Part shown: positions 8,726-22,352 of the stretch, one piece after another
Position numbering within the stretch: position 1 is the first letter of the stretch
Layout: each line of letters opens with the position of its first letter
From: a virus
Virus record (IMG/VR): IMGVR_UViG_3300040751_001900
Span: 1 to 40,397 of that record
Direction: 5' to 3' (one strand)
DNA length: 40,397 bases
Program-made: the position numbers and the translations under genes
The notes under the pieces: generated by a model
What the model was told of the DNA's origin: nothing
The model's database searches: none
The model's input: the letters and a program-made list of their open reading frames with translations, nothing else

Positions 8726-9760
8726 TTAAAAATCGAATTCTTTTTGTGTTTCATCATTAAAAACCTCGCACGATTCACTGCATGAATTTGTATCAGTCAT
8801 TTTTGCGCCGCGAATTCTTGATTTAATTTCAGAACCAGTTGAACCATCAAACATTGCAACAACTTGCTGTAGTGATTTTTTCCCTCTATACATCTGTTCT
8901 TTAACTCCTGTTTTGTTGTCGATGCGAACCGATTCACCTTCTAGTATTTCTAAAAAGCTGTGATACATTTCTGGCTCATCCCTTTGTGCCGCCGCAAGTT
9001 TTAAATCTGATTTTTTAGGGCAAAAAACACAATTGCCTAACCATTCGTCAATTCCTAAATCAAATGGCATTTCTTTCCAAAAGCTTAAAACATCGCTTTT
9101 TTCAGATGAGGTTATCTCAGCCATATTGTGTAGTTTGTTTTTTTTACTTGCAGCAATTCTTTTATCTGTCATTTCGCATATTCGCTCAAGCGAGTAGTGA
9201 ATATGATTACTTGTAAACATCCCATCAAACGGGCAAGATTCCGGTGTATTTGACTGGTTCATGTATAGGGTGTAAATGTCATCATCATTCATGCCTGATT
9301 TTTTACATATTGAATACAATTCCTTTCCAACTAAACGCGCTGGCTCGTCAGCTCGAATGCCTAGCCATGTTTCATAGTTTCCAATACCATACTTTTCATC
9401 GCAATATTTTTTAAACGGCTTTAGCTTCATGCGGTCAGTGCAAAACATACCGCCAATGTATGGTACTCCATATTTAGCCATCATTTCACTGTAAGGTTTA
9501 AGGTCTGGTTTGCATTCGCTAATATCAACAACCTTATAGTTAACACCTTTACCGATTGGCAGCGTGAAGTCGCCGCGCAAGCAAGTTAAGTTTAAATTAA
9601 AATGCTCATTAACATTTTTTATAAACTCGTATGTTTTAGGATGCTCTGCACCTGTGTCCATGAAAACAAAATCAACATTTTCACGACCGAATTTTTCAAT
9701 CATTACTTTGCATAAATAAGCGCTGGTTCTTCCACCGCTAAAGCTAACCACTTGTTTCAT
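8726..9760 (-). CDS. PAPS-reductase-like PP-loop protein
   Basis: A 344-aa protein of the phosphoadenosine phosphosulfate reductase superfamily. The PP-loop SFSGGRTSAYL (residues 6-16) binds and activates with ATP/adenylyl groups. Cysteine motifs follow (MFCTDRMK, ESCPFDGMF, GNCVFCPKKS). The last may hold a metal or Fe-S cluster. ATG 9760 is preferred over GTG 9769, which falls inside the AGGTG ribosome site. Phage members of this family are common and mostly uncharacterised. Sulfur metabolism, DNA phosphorothioation-like modification or nucleotide chemistry are options the sequence cannot separate. Confidence 0.8.
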   Translation of the reverse strand: MKQVVSFSGGRTSAYLCKVMIEKFGRENVDFVFMDTGAEHPKTYEFIKNVNEHFNLNLTCLRGDFTLPIGKGVNYKVVDISECKPDLKPYSEMMAKYGVPYIGGMFCTDRMKLKPFKKYCDEKYGIGNYETWLGIRADEPARLVGKELYSICKKSGMNDDDIYTLYMNQSNTPESCPFDGMFTSNHIHYSLERICEMTDKRIAASKKNKLHNMAEITSSEKSDVLSFWKEMPFDLGIDEWLGNCVFCPKKSDLKLAAAQRDEPEMYHSFLEILEGESVRIDNKTGVKEQMYRGKKSLQQVVAMFDGSTGSEIKSRIRGAKMTDTNSCSESCEVFNDETQKEFDF

Positions 9761-9769
9761 CTTATTCAC

Positions 9770-11248: not shown

Positions 11249-11432
11249 TCAATTTTTCCAATTCATTAAATAGCAATTGCTGTTCTATCCTTAGCTTTTT
11301 ACTTTCAAGCCTCTCAAGCTCATCCTTAGCTTGGTTTATATCTTTCTGTGCTTTACTGTGTTTTAACTTCTGTTTTGCTCTTGCTATTTGTTTACTGGTT
11401 CTTATTAGTGTTTTGTTGAGTGTTTTACTCAT
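11238..11432 (-). CDS. Small basic coiled-coil protein
   Basis: A 64-aa protein from ATG 11432, which overlaps the upstream stop (ATGA); a GTG at 11456 is an alternative start. The N-terminus is very basic (MSKTLNKTLIRTSKQIARAK), then comes a charged coiled coil (KDELERLESKKLRIEQQLL). Function unknown; nucleic-acid binding is plausible from charge alone. Confidence 0.55.
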   Translation of the reverse strand: MSKTLNKTLIRTSKQIARAKQKLKHSKAQKDINQAKDELERLESKKLRIEQQLLFNELEKLKES

Positions 11433-11785
11433 AGTATTAAATGGTTTTTTAGGCACTCTTCTTTCATCTTGTTATAGCTATCAATATACTTTTTTGCGTC
11501 ATTTATATATTTAACGCTAGTTCCTCTCTTACCAATATCTCTAGCGCTACACTCTATTCTGTCGTCACATCTAGCTTCCCAATCTCTTAAACCGATTATC
11601 TTCCATCCGTTAAGCCCTTCAAAAATAGCCACCCTTGGCGGGAATACCCCACCTAAACCCCTAACATAATAACCAATTGTTGGCATCGAATTGAAATACT
11701 CAATATCATTTAAATTAGCTGACTCCAACTGCTTCACAATTGATTTACTTAGCTTTTTCTTTGTGGTTAAAACTTCAATATTCAT
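11429..11785 (-). CDS. Hypothetical first gene of the minus early operon
   Basis: A 118-aa protein. ATG 11785 has AAAGGAAAG at good spacing; a GTG at 11791 is less likely. It follows the structured leader (12251-11786), so its expression would be the first to feel attenuation there. Contains IGYYVRGLGGVFPPRVAIF and a basic C-terminus. No family recognised. Confidence 0.65.
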   Translation of the reverse strand: MNIEVLTTKKKLSKSIVKQLESANLNDIEYFNSMPTIGYYVRGLGGVFPPRVAIFEGLNGWKIIGLRDWEARCDDRIECSARDIGKRGTSVKYINDAKKYIDSYNKMKEECLKNHLIL

Positions 11786-12251
11786 AATCACTTTCCTTTA
11801 GATAATAAGAGTCTTTTTGAACACATAAGGGAAGATACCCTATAACTATTCAATACAAATAAATATTCAAAACAACTTTTAGATATGGCGGCATGTTTAA
11901 AGACTTCTCAGTCTAGGAAACCAATTAAGGCTATCTTCCCGTCTACCTATCCTTTATCCCCGTGTGAGGTTAAAAAGCTGTTAAGTTGTCTATGCGTTTA
12001 TATACCGTTGTGCATATACGGAAACCGTTTTGCGGTAAGTGGGATATTCTTAATCTGTGGAAACTTAGAAAGGGATTGTGTCTGTGCAACTCTGCTAAAT
12101 GTCCATAACGAAAAACAGACACAAAAAAAGGCTTATTAGTACAAGCCCAGTAACTCGGGGCGGTAAAGTATTTGTGGAAGTTTCCCACGAACACTAGACC
12201 TGTACTAATAAACCCTAAATTACTTTACCATTTAACGGCTTCCACACCGCA
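11786..12251 (-). ncRNA. Long structured leader RNA of the minus early operon
   Basis: About 466 bases without a convincing gene lie between a minus promoter and the first gene. The RNA would contain dense complementary segments. TGTGGAAG (12246-12239) pairs with 12180-12173, GGTAAAGTA (12229-12221) with 12170-12162, and TTATTAGTACA (12211-12201) with 12143-12133. Further down, TTGTGTCTGT (12124-12115) pairs with 12085-12076, and GGGAAGATA (11940-11932) with 11837-11829. A hairpin AGACT-GAGA-AGTCT (11914-11901) has a GNRA loop. The first three pairings cross one another, which suggests alternative folds rather than one static fold. No known RNA class recognised. Confidence 0.6.
12123..12147 (-). 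terminator. Candidate attenuator terminator in the leader
   Basis: On the minus strand GGCTT (12147-12143) pairs with AAGCC (12134-12130) over an 8-base loop and is followed by seven T. The loop and part of the stem are also the 3' half of the 11-bp long-range pairing with 12211-12201. GGGC (12148-12145) can instead pair with GCCC (12161-12158). Both alternatives would block the terminator. Confidence 0.55.
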
Positions 12252-12257
12252 TTAGTA

Positions 12258-12286
12258 ATTATCGTATATGTTGTTATTTTATGCAA
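12258..12286 (-). promoter_or_regulatory. Minus promoter of the early/replication operon
   Basis: On the minus strand TTGCAT and GATAAT are 17 bases apart, which is sigma70-like, with a start near 12251. It lies just before the structured leader and is the only good promoter seen for the genes from 11785 leftward. Confidence 0.55.
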
Positions 12287-13023: not shown

Positions 13024-13184
13024 ATTTGCCAATAACGGCAATTCATAAGTGAATAGAATATTATTAGTTCTATATCAGAAATGAAGTTAGTTACTAAGGT
13101 TTAGGTGATTAAATCTCGGGCTACACCGTTAAGTAGCAAATACTGAGCTAATGTTGTGAAACATGAGTAAGGTGAACGGATAGT
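13024..13184 (+). ncRNA. Hairpin-rich 3' region, possible small RNA
   Basis: 161 bases without an ORF between the gene pair and a terminator. Three hairpins in plus-strand sense are seen: TTGCC/GGCAA (13026-13041), GCTAC/GTAGC (13120-13137) and ATGTT-GTGA-AACAT (13151-13164, GNRA loop). It could be a structured 3' UTR or a processed small RNA. No own promoter seen. Confidence 0.35.
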
Positions 13185-13217
13185 AAAAAGGCGCTGTTAT
13201 GCGCCTTTTGTTTTTTT
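13185..13217. terminator. Convergent terminator
   Basis: AAAAAGGCGC (13185-13194) pairs with GCGCCTTTT (13201-13209) over a 6-base loop, followed by a T-rich tract on the plus strand and five T on the minus strand. It separates converging plus (to 13023) and minus (to 13197) genes; the minus stop codon lies in the loop. Confidence 0.8.
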
Positions 13218-20031: not shown

Positions 20032-22352
20032 TAATGATCTCCTGTACCATTTATATATCTAATCGAGTTAGAGCCAAAGAATTGGACTGTAGCTCCGTTA
20101 TCAATGACACCCTTACCAGCTATACCGCCTTGGGAATCATTATCTTTACCATTTTGCCCAAAGCTACCAGATAATCTATCACTTGTACCAGTTTTACCGT
20201 TAGAGCCAAACTTACCGCCTTGCTGAGATATTACCTGGCCATTTGCACCGCCAACACCAGGCGAGCTACCATCACCACCATCAGCACCATCAGCAGCAAT
20301 AACACCATCTAGTGAATCGCTTGTTAAATCTGGTATTGTGTTTTTAAATCCACCATCACCGCCGCTTGGAGCAATAATGTAGCCGTTAGCTGCTGGGTAG
20401 GCTGCGCTTGGCGTTGATCCGCTGAAATAAATATCTGTGTCAACTCCTTGGGCATCATAAACTGTGCCGCCATTTTCACCTGGCAACACTGGAGTTAAGC
20501 GCCAGTTATTAAACTCATAGTCATAGCTAGCTTTTTCGCCCTGAGCGCCGTTACCACCCTTTGACATTAACTCACTACCGTTAGCCATGATTATAATTAT
20601 TTTAGAGCCTGCGGCAAAATTGCCAGCAACAATAGATGGTGTCGATGTTGTGTTACTTGATGCTTTGACGTTATCAAATATAAATGTAATCGTTACAGCT
20701 CCGGCAGGCGCTCCAGCATACTGAGTGTAAAGGTTTATATTCGACACTGAGCCAGAGATAACTATTTCAGTATTGTCTGCAAATGATGGTTCATAGCTAA
20801 GCGCCTCAACTTGATATTCCCTGCCGAAATCGGAATATTTTGGTTTAATCTGTAATATTTGAGCGCGTGAAATTGTGCTTGGCAATCCGTTAAAATCAAC
20901 AATAGATTCAGTGTTTATTGTTGCCACGTCACCGACTTTGTAATTAAGCTTAACTTCCTGCGTTTTCCAAGTAAATCTACGTGGGTCAGAAAATCTGTTT
21001 GTTGTTCGGTTTACAAGTAAATCAGCAGCTGTATTGCTTATAATGTAATTAAAGCCAAAATCTTTTATTTTTGACTCACCAAAAGCGGAATCAAGCTCAA
21101 GCTCTGGTTTTATAAACGTCGAAGCATTTTTGTAGCTTGGTATTTCTTCTGGATCTGTTAAGTAATCCTTATTGTAAACAATTACTGAGCGTGTATTTCT
21201 AAGGTTTTCTTCGTCCTTTACCTTGATGCTTTCAAAGTCAATTTCATTTCCTTCTGTCAAAACAGCGTCAGATTCTTTCCAAACGTTAACAGCTGAAACT
21301 TTTACTTTTCTTTCAACTTCGTCATACCAAGTATTGAGCATATAAGGTTCTAAAAACATTTTTAAAGCAGCGTCAACGCTCATGCTTTCGTAAAATATTG
21401 TTTTTACAGTTACACCAGCAAGCCATGTGTCTATCTCTGCTTTCCACTCTAAAAGCGGCAGCCTTGAAGTAGGTATGCCAACGTCTGAAAGCACATTGTA
21501 AAGCAAGTCGCCTATGTGCTGGTTTTGCGCTACATAACATTTAAATATCTGGTCGCCTCCGCTGTGACTCTCGGCTCTTGTGCGCGAATACGTATCACCA
21601 GAAAACTGAATTGCTGAGCCTCTGCTCTGAACTGTAATTTCAGCTGTGCCAGTCCCGATATTTGATGTATTTGTAACCTTTAAAAGCTCATCACCAATGC
21701 GGATTACATCGTTAATCGAATATGACAAATCAGGATCAACTAATAAAGTTGTGGCTGTTTCGTCGATGTCTTGCCTTAAATACCCGTATTCTTCTTCGGG
21801 CCAAACAGCCTCGCCAATATCTACACGGCTTAGCTCGCTTTTTAGCTTTAGAGTCCATTTGCCCTTGCCGTCACTGTTAAACCCATCTGTCAAATAGTGT
21901 CGAGTTTCATAATGCCCATCAACCTCACAAAAATTGTGTATCTTTACTGGATTGTTTGCAAAGTAATTTCTTGCCTTTAGCTTTTGCAGGAAAGTTCCTT
22001 GCGCTGAAACTTTTTCATCTACATCTGGCGCGAACGGATTTGGATCACCAAAATTAACAGAGTCAACTAACTGAATAGAACCAGATCCGCGAATAGCTAG
22101 ACCTACTTCTGGCTGCAATTTTGTTGTATTTTCGCTGATACCAACAAGACACTTTTTAACTCCGCCAATCGGAATTTGCCCGGTATCGCTAATGCCCTCA
22201 ATAAAGCTTTTACGCATCGGCTTGTTGTAGTTTGTAAACATGTAAACATTTGTGCCAGACGCTGTTCCATTACCGCTTTTCGGCGTACCGAATCCGCTAT
22301 CTGATTTAGGCAGCTGTAATTCAACGATTGTATAATGTCTTTTTGCTGTCAT
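20031..22352 (-). CDS. Tail tip / hub protein with glycine-rich C-terminal domain
   Basis: A 773-aa protein. The first ~560 residues read like a tail-hub/tip protein (hub-like RHYTIVELQLP start; TDGFNSDGKGKWTLKLKSEL; repeated phage-tail beta domains). From about residue 594 a glycine-rich region begins (SKGGNGAQGEKA, PGENGGTV, PSGGDGGF, DGADGGDGSSPGVGGANGQ). It resembles the polyglycine-helix receptor-binding domains known from T-even gp38 adhesins. This end probably touches the host. ATG 22352 overlaps the upstream stop (ATGA). Confidence 0.75.
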   Translation of the reverse strand: MTAKRHYTIVELQLPKSDSGFGTPKSGNGTASGTNVYMFTNYNKPMRKSFIEGISDTGQIPIGGVKKCLVGISENTTKLQPEVGLAIRGSGSIQLVDSVNFGDPNPFAPDVDEKVSAQGTFLQKLKARNYFANNPVKIHNFCEVDGHYETRHYLTDGFNSDGKGKWTLKLKSELSRVDIGEAVWPEEEYGYLRQDIDETATTLLVDPDLSYSINDVIRIGDELLKVTNTSNIGTGTAEITVQSRGSAIQFSGDTYSRTRAESHSGGDQIFKCYVAQNQHIGDLLYNVLSDVGIPTSRLPLLEWKAEIDTWLAGVTVKTIFYESMSVDAALKMFLEPYMLNTWYDEVERKVKVSAVNVWKESDAVLTEGNEIDFESIKVKDEENLRNTRSVIVYNKDYLTDPEEIPSYKNASTFIKPELELDSAFGESKIKDFGFNYIISNTAADLLVNRTTNRFSDPRRFTWKTQEVKLNYKVGDVATINTESIVDFNGLPSTISRAQILQIKPKYSDFGREYQVEALSYEPSFADNTEIVISGSVSNINLYTQYAGAPAGAVTITFIFDNVKASSNTTSTPSIVAGNFAAGSKIIIIMANGSELMSKGGNGAQGEKASYDYEFNNWRLTPVLPGENGGTVYDAQGVDTDIYFSGSTPSAAYPAANGYIIAPSGGDGGFKNTIPDLTSDSLDGVIAADGADGGDGSSPGVGGANGQVISQQGGKFGSNGKTGTSDRLSGSFGQNGKDNDSQGGIAGKGVIDNGATVQFFGSNSIRYINGTGDH

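Follow-up and report, generated by a model that had tools for sequence, protein, structure and literature searches.

The window analysed here, a stretch of 40,397 nucleotides of viral DNA (IMG/VR record IMGVR_UViG_3300040751_001900), carries on its minus strand a promoter followed by a long noncoding region and then by an operon which begins with a gene of PHROG 7981 and continues with genes for PAPS reductase, NinG, NinB and SSB, those for TerS and TerL lying further along. The phage-encoded phosphoadenosine phosphosulfate reductase lies within the operon at 8726-9769, on the minus strand. On the plus strand, at 13024-13210, a noncoding tail of about 160 nt that follows a divergent two-gene unit ends in a strong terminator (AAAAGGCGC...GCGCCTTTT plus a T-run). 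The features of the promoter and the region downstream of it are as follows.

12258-12286, minus strand: promoter TTGCAT-17-GATAAT, with the -35 element TTGCAT at 12286-12281 and the -10 element GATAAT at 12263-12258
12235-12250, minus strand: hairpin P1 (GCGG/CCGU) at the 5′ end of the RNA, its loop being segment a
12239-12246, minus strand: 5′ strand of helix a in the P1 loop, UGUGGAAG (8-bp pair)
12221-12230, minus strand: 5′ strand of helix b, between P1 and the long hairpin, (U)GGUAAAGUA (9-10-bp pair)
12213-12224, minus strand: segment d, AGUAAUUUAGGG, which overlaps b at its 3′ end and c at its base; an alternative pairing partner for d′
12192-12215, minus strand: 5′ arm of the long hairpin, c with its extension
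12173-12180, minus strand: 3′ strand of helix a (a′), in the apical loop of the long hairpin, CUUCCACA
12161-12170, minus strand: 3′ strand of helix b (b′), UACUUUACC(G)
12149-12160, minus strand: segment d′, CCCCGAGUUACU, also the 5′ part and loop of a GCCC/GGGC hairpin
12130-12153, minus strand: 3′ arm of the long hairpin, c with its extension, directly before the U-run
12123-12129, minus strand: U-run of seven, the terminator-like tail of c/c′
12116-12122, minus strand: 5′ strand of an acceptor-like stem, GUGUCUG (tRNA slot)
12078-12084, minus strand: 3′ strand of the acceptor-like stem, CAGACAC (7 of 7 pairs), enclosing a 31-nt insert in the window's phage
12064-12077, minus strand: conserved AAUCCCUUUCUAAG after the slot
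11792-12063, minus strand: remaining noncoding region up to the next gene, where relatives have a conserved 3′ domain
11429-11791, minus strand: first downstream gene, at the head of the operon, 120 aa, PHROG 7981 (function unassigned)

The RNA encoded between the promoter and the operon is a member of a previously unlisted structured family, present at more than 50 loci in dozens of marine bacterial viruses that include Vibrio and Pseudoalteromonas phage isolates. Intergenic copies with 77-82% identity were detected by blastn in Vibrio phages NF and 1.122.A/B and in Pseudoalteromonas phage H105/1, which otherwise share little with the window by megablast, and further copies were obtained from pattern scans of IMG/VR followed by sorting by profile and by eye; the pattern matches L010, L017, L093, L094, L098, L100 and L103 were discarded as chance matches. 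A covariance model of the RNA, R1, recovers 43 of the 54 searched sources at E < 1e-4, together with the second NF copy and further isolates. A previous interpretation of the same DNA, made from its letters alone and referred to below as the sequence-only reading, had recognised no known RNA family, and the same result is obtained here, with no Rfam match at gathering and none over the 5′ domain at E <= 10. Pattern matches in bacterial genomes fell outside this RNA on inspection, no copies were found on plasmids, and in a search for prophage copies none of 330 genomes from the family to which G001 (the record titled Enterovibrio) belongs matched R1 under strict filters, which does not prove absence. 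A description of the RNA was not found in the open-access literature searched. An ORF-less gap of about 1 kb in phage ICP1 (80097-81107 of that genome; L105 12098-13108), reported to be the most abundant ICP1 transcript (PMC7567579), was considered as a candidate member and rejected, having no R1 match.

The genes that follow the RNA are not the same from phage to phage: the next gene can encode a phosphatase or a DNA methylase or can lack a known function. The first clearly placed downstream ORF nevertheless lies on the same strand, about 420-780 nt from the RNA start, at nearly all loci, with the exception of L007, in which the 5′ domain is kept and convergent genes lie about 255 nt from the RNA start. 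Phage NF carries two copies on opposite strands, both inside gene strings and not at their heads; the first precedes a serine/threonine phosphatase gene, and the second (NF 21747-21872, plus strand; L106 7748-7873) lies before a calcineurin-like phosphoesterase.

The promoter that had been claimed at 12286-12258 is present, and a promoter adjoins the RNA in most family members. An exact TATAAT occurs 2-20 nt upstream of the RNA in 30 of 55 family loci, compared with 0.5% of random windows, and a 5/6 match occurs in the same 2-20 nt range in 13 further loci of the 55, compared with 9.4% of random windows; over these loci the distance from TATAAT to the RNA is most often 5-7 nt. The promoter spacing in the window places the 5′ end of the RNA at or adjoining P1, with the minus-strand RNA starting at 12250/12251.

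The expectation that a structured RNA occupies this promoter-proximal place is borne out by both fold stability and covariation. The 137-nt RNA folds better than all of 200 shuffles (z -4.4), and the complementary pairs of 8, 9 and 11 bp described by the sequence-only reading are all found at this place, the 11-bp pair forming part of a 23-bp helix (12192-12214 / 12130-12152). In subfamily I the a/a′ helix is 7-10 bp long and the b/b′ helix 9-12 bp, c/c′ being the long hairpin, and in every subfamily I sequence examined a/a′ and b/b′ link the 5′ segment to the hairpin loop; in other members (for example L088, L095, L106, L110 and L111) b′ precedes a′, so that the order is swapped and both pairings are kept. 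When partners are permuted among 28 homologues, the pairing of cognate a/a′, b/b′ and c/c′ strands is reached in none of 2000 permutations. In an alignment of 16 sequences (A3), 98.2% of cells pair, compared with 87.7% in shuffled alignments and 40-49% in slid structures, and double changes are found in 17 pairs and 77 cells, compared with 11.9 and 26.0 in shuffles and at most 4 and at most 11 in slid structures. This level of covariation was reached in 0 of 500 shuffles, and all four helices contribute to it: P1 (98.4% of cells paired, with a G-C to A-U double change in 4 of 16 sequences), a/a′ (three A3 pairs with double changes), b/b′ (100% of A3 cells paired, five pairs with double changes), and the long hairpin with its extension (98%, eight pairs). 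The homologues were checked for uncompensated mutation of the paired segments, and the crossing helices show compensatory changes instead. The frequent G-U pairs indicate that the minus strand is the RNA strand.

At its 3′ end the domain defined by these covarying, crossing helices has a terminator-like hairpin followed by a U-run, and it is the identity of this hairpin that differs from the initial proposal. The short stem GGCTT/AAGCC that had been taken for the terminator is only 77.5% paired, shows no compensatory change and has one pair broken in 9 of 16 sequences, and it was rejected as a local terminator, not being conserved in those 16. As judged from the alignments, it is the c/c′ helix of 23-26 bp, with its U-run, that forms the conserved terminator-like hairpin. 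At least five T follow c′ in all but one of 50 loci, a count in which T6 was required in three collection scans and was not required in the first scan or for the blastn-derived isolates. The exception, Pseudoalteromonas phage HS5 (L112), has neither U-run nor slot and keeps the 5′ folds and the 3′ domain; it is the only member seen without both, which makes it a natural test case. The notion that the U-run is part of the tRNA slot only was dropped, since most slot-less members keep it (H105/1, L3, 1.115, 1.147, Pq0, 1.003 and 1.131). The conserved strand before the U-run is the last of the domain to be transcribed, the U-run following the end of b′ by 29-35 nt. The mean full-length minimum free energy is -44.7 kcal/mol, compared with -22.8 kcal/mol for a plus b, so that by duplex energy the terminator hairpin is favoured over a plus b at equilibrium.

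Segment d′ is of particular relevance to the question of alternative folds, because it is complementary to two partners, namely d, on the immediate 5′ side of c, and c itself in its upper part. The d/d′ pairing has 95.6% of cells paired and three pairs with double changes in A3, mainly in one clade, and the wider family was tested as well. A change of U to C at column 113 of d′ in L009, L016 and L018 is matched both by column 31 in d and by column 62 in the c extension, and other d′ variants which fit both partners occur in L084, L087, L090, L091 and L101. The case for d/d′, and for the pairing of d′ with the c extension, is less strong than the one for a, b and c: two control segment pairs (the extension with b′, and d with c′) also lie above all permutations. 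Since the GGG found at the base of c is also part of d, a complete c/c′ helix and d/d′ cannot coexist in one molecule, and b/b′ seems, by its length, to be strained beside a fully zipped hairpin of 23-26 bp. The incompatibility of the helices is a geometric argument, and the crossing of helices together with covariation does not in itself prove mutual exclusion. The GCCC/GGGC hairpin is pairable in 16 of 16 sequences and nearly invariant, and hence uninformative for covariation. The proposal of mutually exclusive folds therefore gains from the two exclusive, conserved partners of d′, while the idea of a simple leader attenuator is not supported, as the RNA continues past the U-run and HS5 keeps the folds without one.

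The limits 12123-12251 originally given for the feature are accordingly too narrow. A 7-bp stem follows the U-run in nearly all members, enclosing an insert of 15-99 nt, and its variants in relatives include GUAUCUG/CAGAUAC, GUACCUG/CAGGUAC, GUUUUUG/CAGAAAC and GUGUCUA/UAGACAC. Some of the inserts are tRNAs: that of L080 is tRNA-Val, and in three further phages annotated tRNA genes start at a distance of 0-3 nt past the U-run (those for Trp, Arg and Gly in Seahorse, for Met and Arg in vB_VaM_H2, and for Trp and Arg in 1.116.O). ARAGORN or Rfam calls a tRNA in the slot of these four, with no call for the window, where the insert is 31 nt, or for most others; tRNAs are found further downstream in L059 and L060. 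As tRNAs that begin 0-3 nt past the U-run leave no room for another promoter, polymerase must read through the U-run at least sometimes. L013, L061, L079 and L081 have another acceptor-like stem (GUCUGUAUA/UAUACAGA) past the first slot, together with more tRNA-like inserts, which suggests that some members have more than one slot. A possible pairing between AAAGGGUU in the 5′ part and AACCCUUU after the slot is suggestive by eye.

Beyond the slot, two types of 3′ domain were modelled, in which RNAalifold finds double changes in 4 of 20 and 10 of 24 pairs. Each type occurs with different 5′ domains, and phages of V. breoganii differ in type, 1.131.O having one and 1.115.A, 1.116.O and 1.147.O the other. 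The corresponding region of the window fits neither of these models, nor is its stability out of the ordinary (z -0.28), and it would be a 3′ domain by virtue of its position. The 5′ domain thus heads a larger modular phage RNA in which it is followed by a tRNA or tRNA-like slot, a 3′ domain and the operon.

The best explanation for these observations, with a probability of roughly 45%, is a pseudoknot-gated conditional terminator which heads the large modular RNA. The 5′ domain would then act as a conditional terminator of transcription in the following manner. Its segments would emerge in the order a, b/d, c, then a′, b′, d′, c′ and the U-run, so that the P1 loop could pair with a′, b with b′, and d with d′, before c′ leaves RNA polymerase. 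If these early pairings hold the c strand open, transcription would run on past the U-run, through the slot and the 3′ domain and into the genes; where they are absent or displaced, d′ would join the upper part of c and the hairpin of 23-26 bp would zip before the U-run, stopping transcription and yielding a short RNA of about 125 nt. With the hairpin favoured at equilibrium, read-through would need to be under kinetic control or assisted, and the balance might be tipped by kinetics, by a protein of the phage, by a factor of the host or by dimerisation of the RNA. The RNA may in this way decide between a short RNA and the whole long transcript. The gate is favoured by the covariation of P1, a, b and c, by the retention of both partners of d′, by the retention of the U-run also without the slot, by the read-through that the adjoining tRNA genes require, by the late transcription of the strand before the U-run, and by the location of the next sizeable ORF, which is nearly always on the same strand; against it stands HS5, which has the folds without the U-run.

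The alternative that survives best, although it is considered somewhat unlikely, is that the RNA is a large ornate RNA like GOLLD or ROOL, in which the helices that cross would be lasting contacts, either tertiary or between molecules (kissing loops), in an RNA that acts as an assembly, the tRNAs or tRNA-like arms would occupy a peripheral slot, and the U-run would be structural or would be the leader removed at tRNA excision. GOLLD and ROOL lie near phage tRNAs, the linkers of GOLLD sometimes hold tRNAs, and intermolecular kissing loops together with tRNA-containing linkers have been described in GOLLD and ROOL RNAs (PMC12286853). The present RNA resembles them in its length of about 400-650 nt, its elaborate pseudoknots, its phage origin, its modular covarying 3′ domains, the tRNAs inside it and the unrelated genes downstream. 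The covariance model of GOLLD (RF02032), however, matches none of 13 genomes at E <= 10, cmscan likewise giving no match at E <= 10, and that of ROOL (RF03087) gives no match, its control genomes being silent too, with none in a cmscan of all Rfam; most members also show no obvious terminator before the next gene, which gives the RNA the look of an mRNA leader, and the retention of the U-run in the absence of the slot is left unexplained. A reading which is less probable still, and which we regard as unlikely, is that the family represents a class of modular phage RNA with tRNAs as interchangeable parts, in which a self-knotted 5′ domain gates read-through, a docking slot holds 0-3 genuine tRNAs or the relic of an acceptor stem, and the 3′ domains that follow can be exchanged, copies possibly being assembled through the covarying loop pairs.

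It is improbable that the RNA is a processive antiterminator of the put type, in which the nascent RNA, once folded, would remain attached to RNA polymerase and suppress termination both here and at later terminators of the operon. Such a role would suit the promoter-proximal location before a long operon in the window, and the two opposite-strand copies in NF resemble putL and putR of HK022 (PMC9378689), but both of the NF copies lie within gene strings rather than at their heads, and put RNA, at about 70 nt with two stem-loops (PMC9378689) and without a terminator of its own, differs in sequence and size. More improbable again is a stand-alone, trans-acting small RNA of about 125 nt, the downstream conservation belonging to a separate element, for while the RNA has its own promoter and a terminator-like end, and in L007 the 5′ domain is kept ahead of convergent genes, about 255 nt from where the RNA begins, the 5′ domain and the segment beyond the U-run are conserved together in nearly all members and the tRNAs that follow have no promoter of their own.

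Large phage RNAs without known purpose are few, and this unlisted family, which occurs in cultured Vibrio and Pseudoalteromonas phages, brings one more structured RNA to their number. Because the isolates vary in the presence of tRNAs, in the presence of the U-run and in the 3′ domain, natural variants can be used to test each part. If the pseudoknot-gated terminator is correct, it would constitute an RNA-only gate ahead of phage tRNAs and operons; if assembly is correct, the RNA would be another of the GOLLD/ROOL kind, with tRNA as an internal part.

A similar layout of promoter, leader, terminator and operon is seen in the Q-controlled pR′/tR′ region of lambda, where a constitutive-looking promoter is followed by a short leader, an intrinsic terminator and then a phage operon, and where a short terminated RNA is produced; that system is not known to have a conserved covarying pseudoknot or a tRNA slot. 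Riboswitch and attenuator leaders likewise combine a terminator hairpin with alternative pairing of one of its strands, and the present RNA shares with intrinsic-terminator attenuators a conserved, covarying helix (c/c′) directly before a U-run and, on weaker evidence, a pairing of d′ with d that excludes its pairing with the c extension; it differs from such leaders in that the downstream genes are unrelated across phages, tRNAs can adjoin it, and it has no Rfam aptamer. HK022 put RNA is also a promoter-proximal phage RNA before an operon, and an effect on termination is proposed in both cases, whereas the 5′ domain described here is about 125 nt long, has four covarying helices, three of which cross, possesses its own terminator-like end and is followed by more structured RNA. 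GOLLD (RF02032) and ROOL (RF03087) are likewise large, elaborate, tRNA-associated phage RNAs, and the variable domain of GOLLD can contain tRNAs; being phage-borne and near or containing tRNAs is a trait that this RNA shares with GOLLD, which is not sufficient for membership. In contrast to both, it is the 3′ domain that varies here, the 5′ domain with its terminator-like hairpin is the best conserved part, and the tRNAs stand directly after the U-run.
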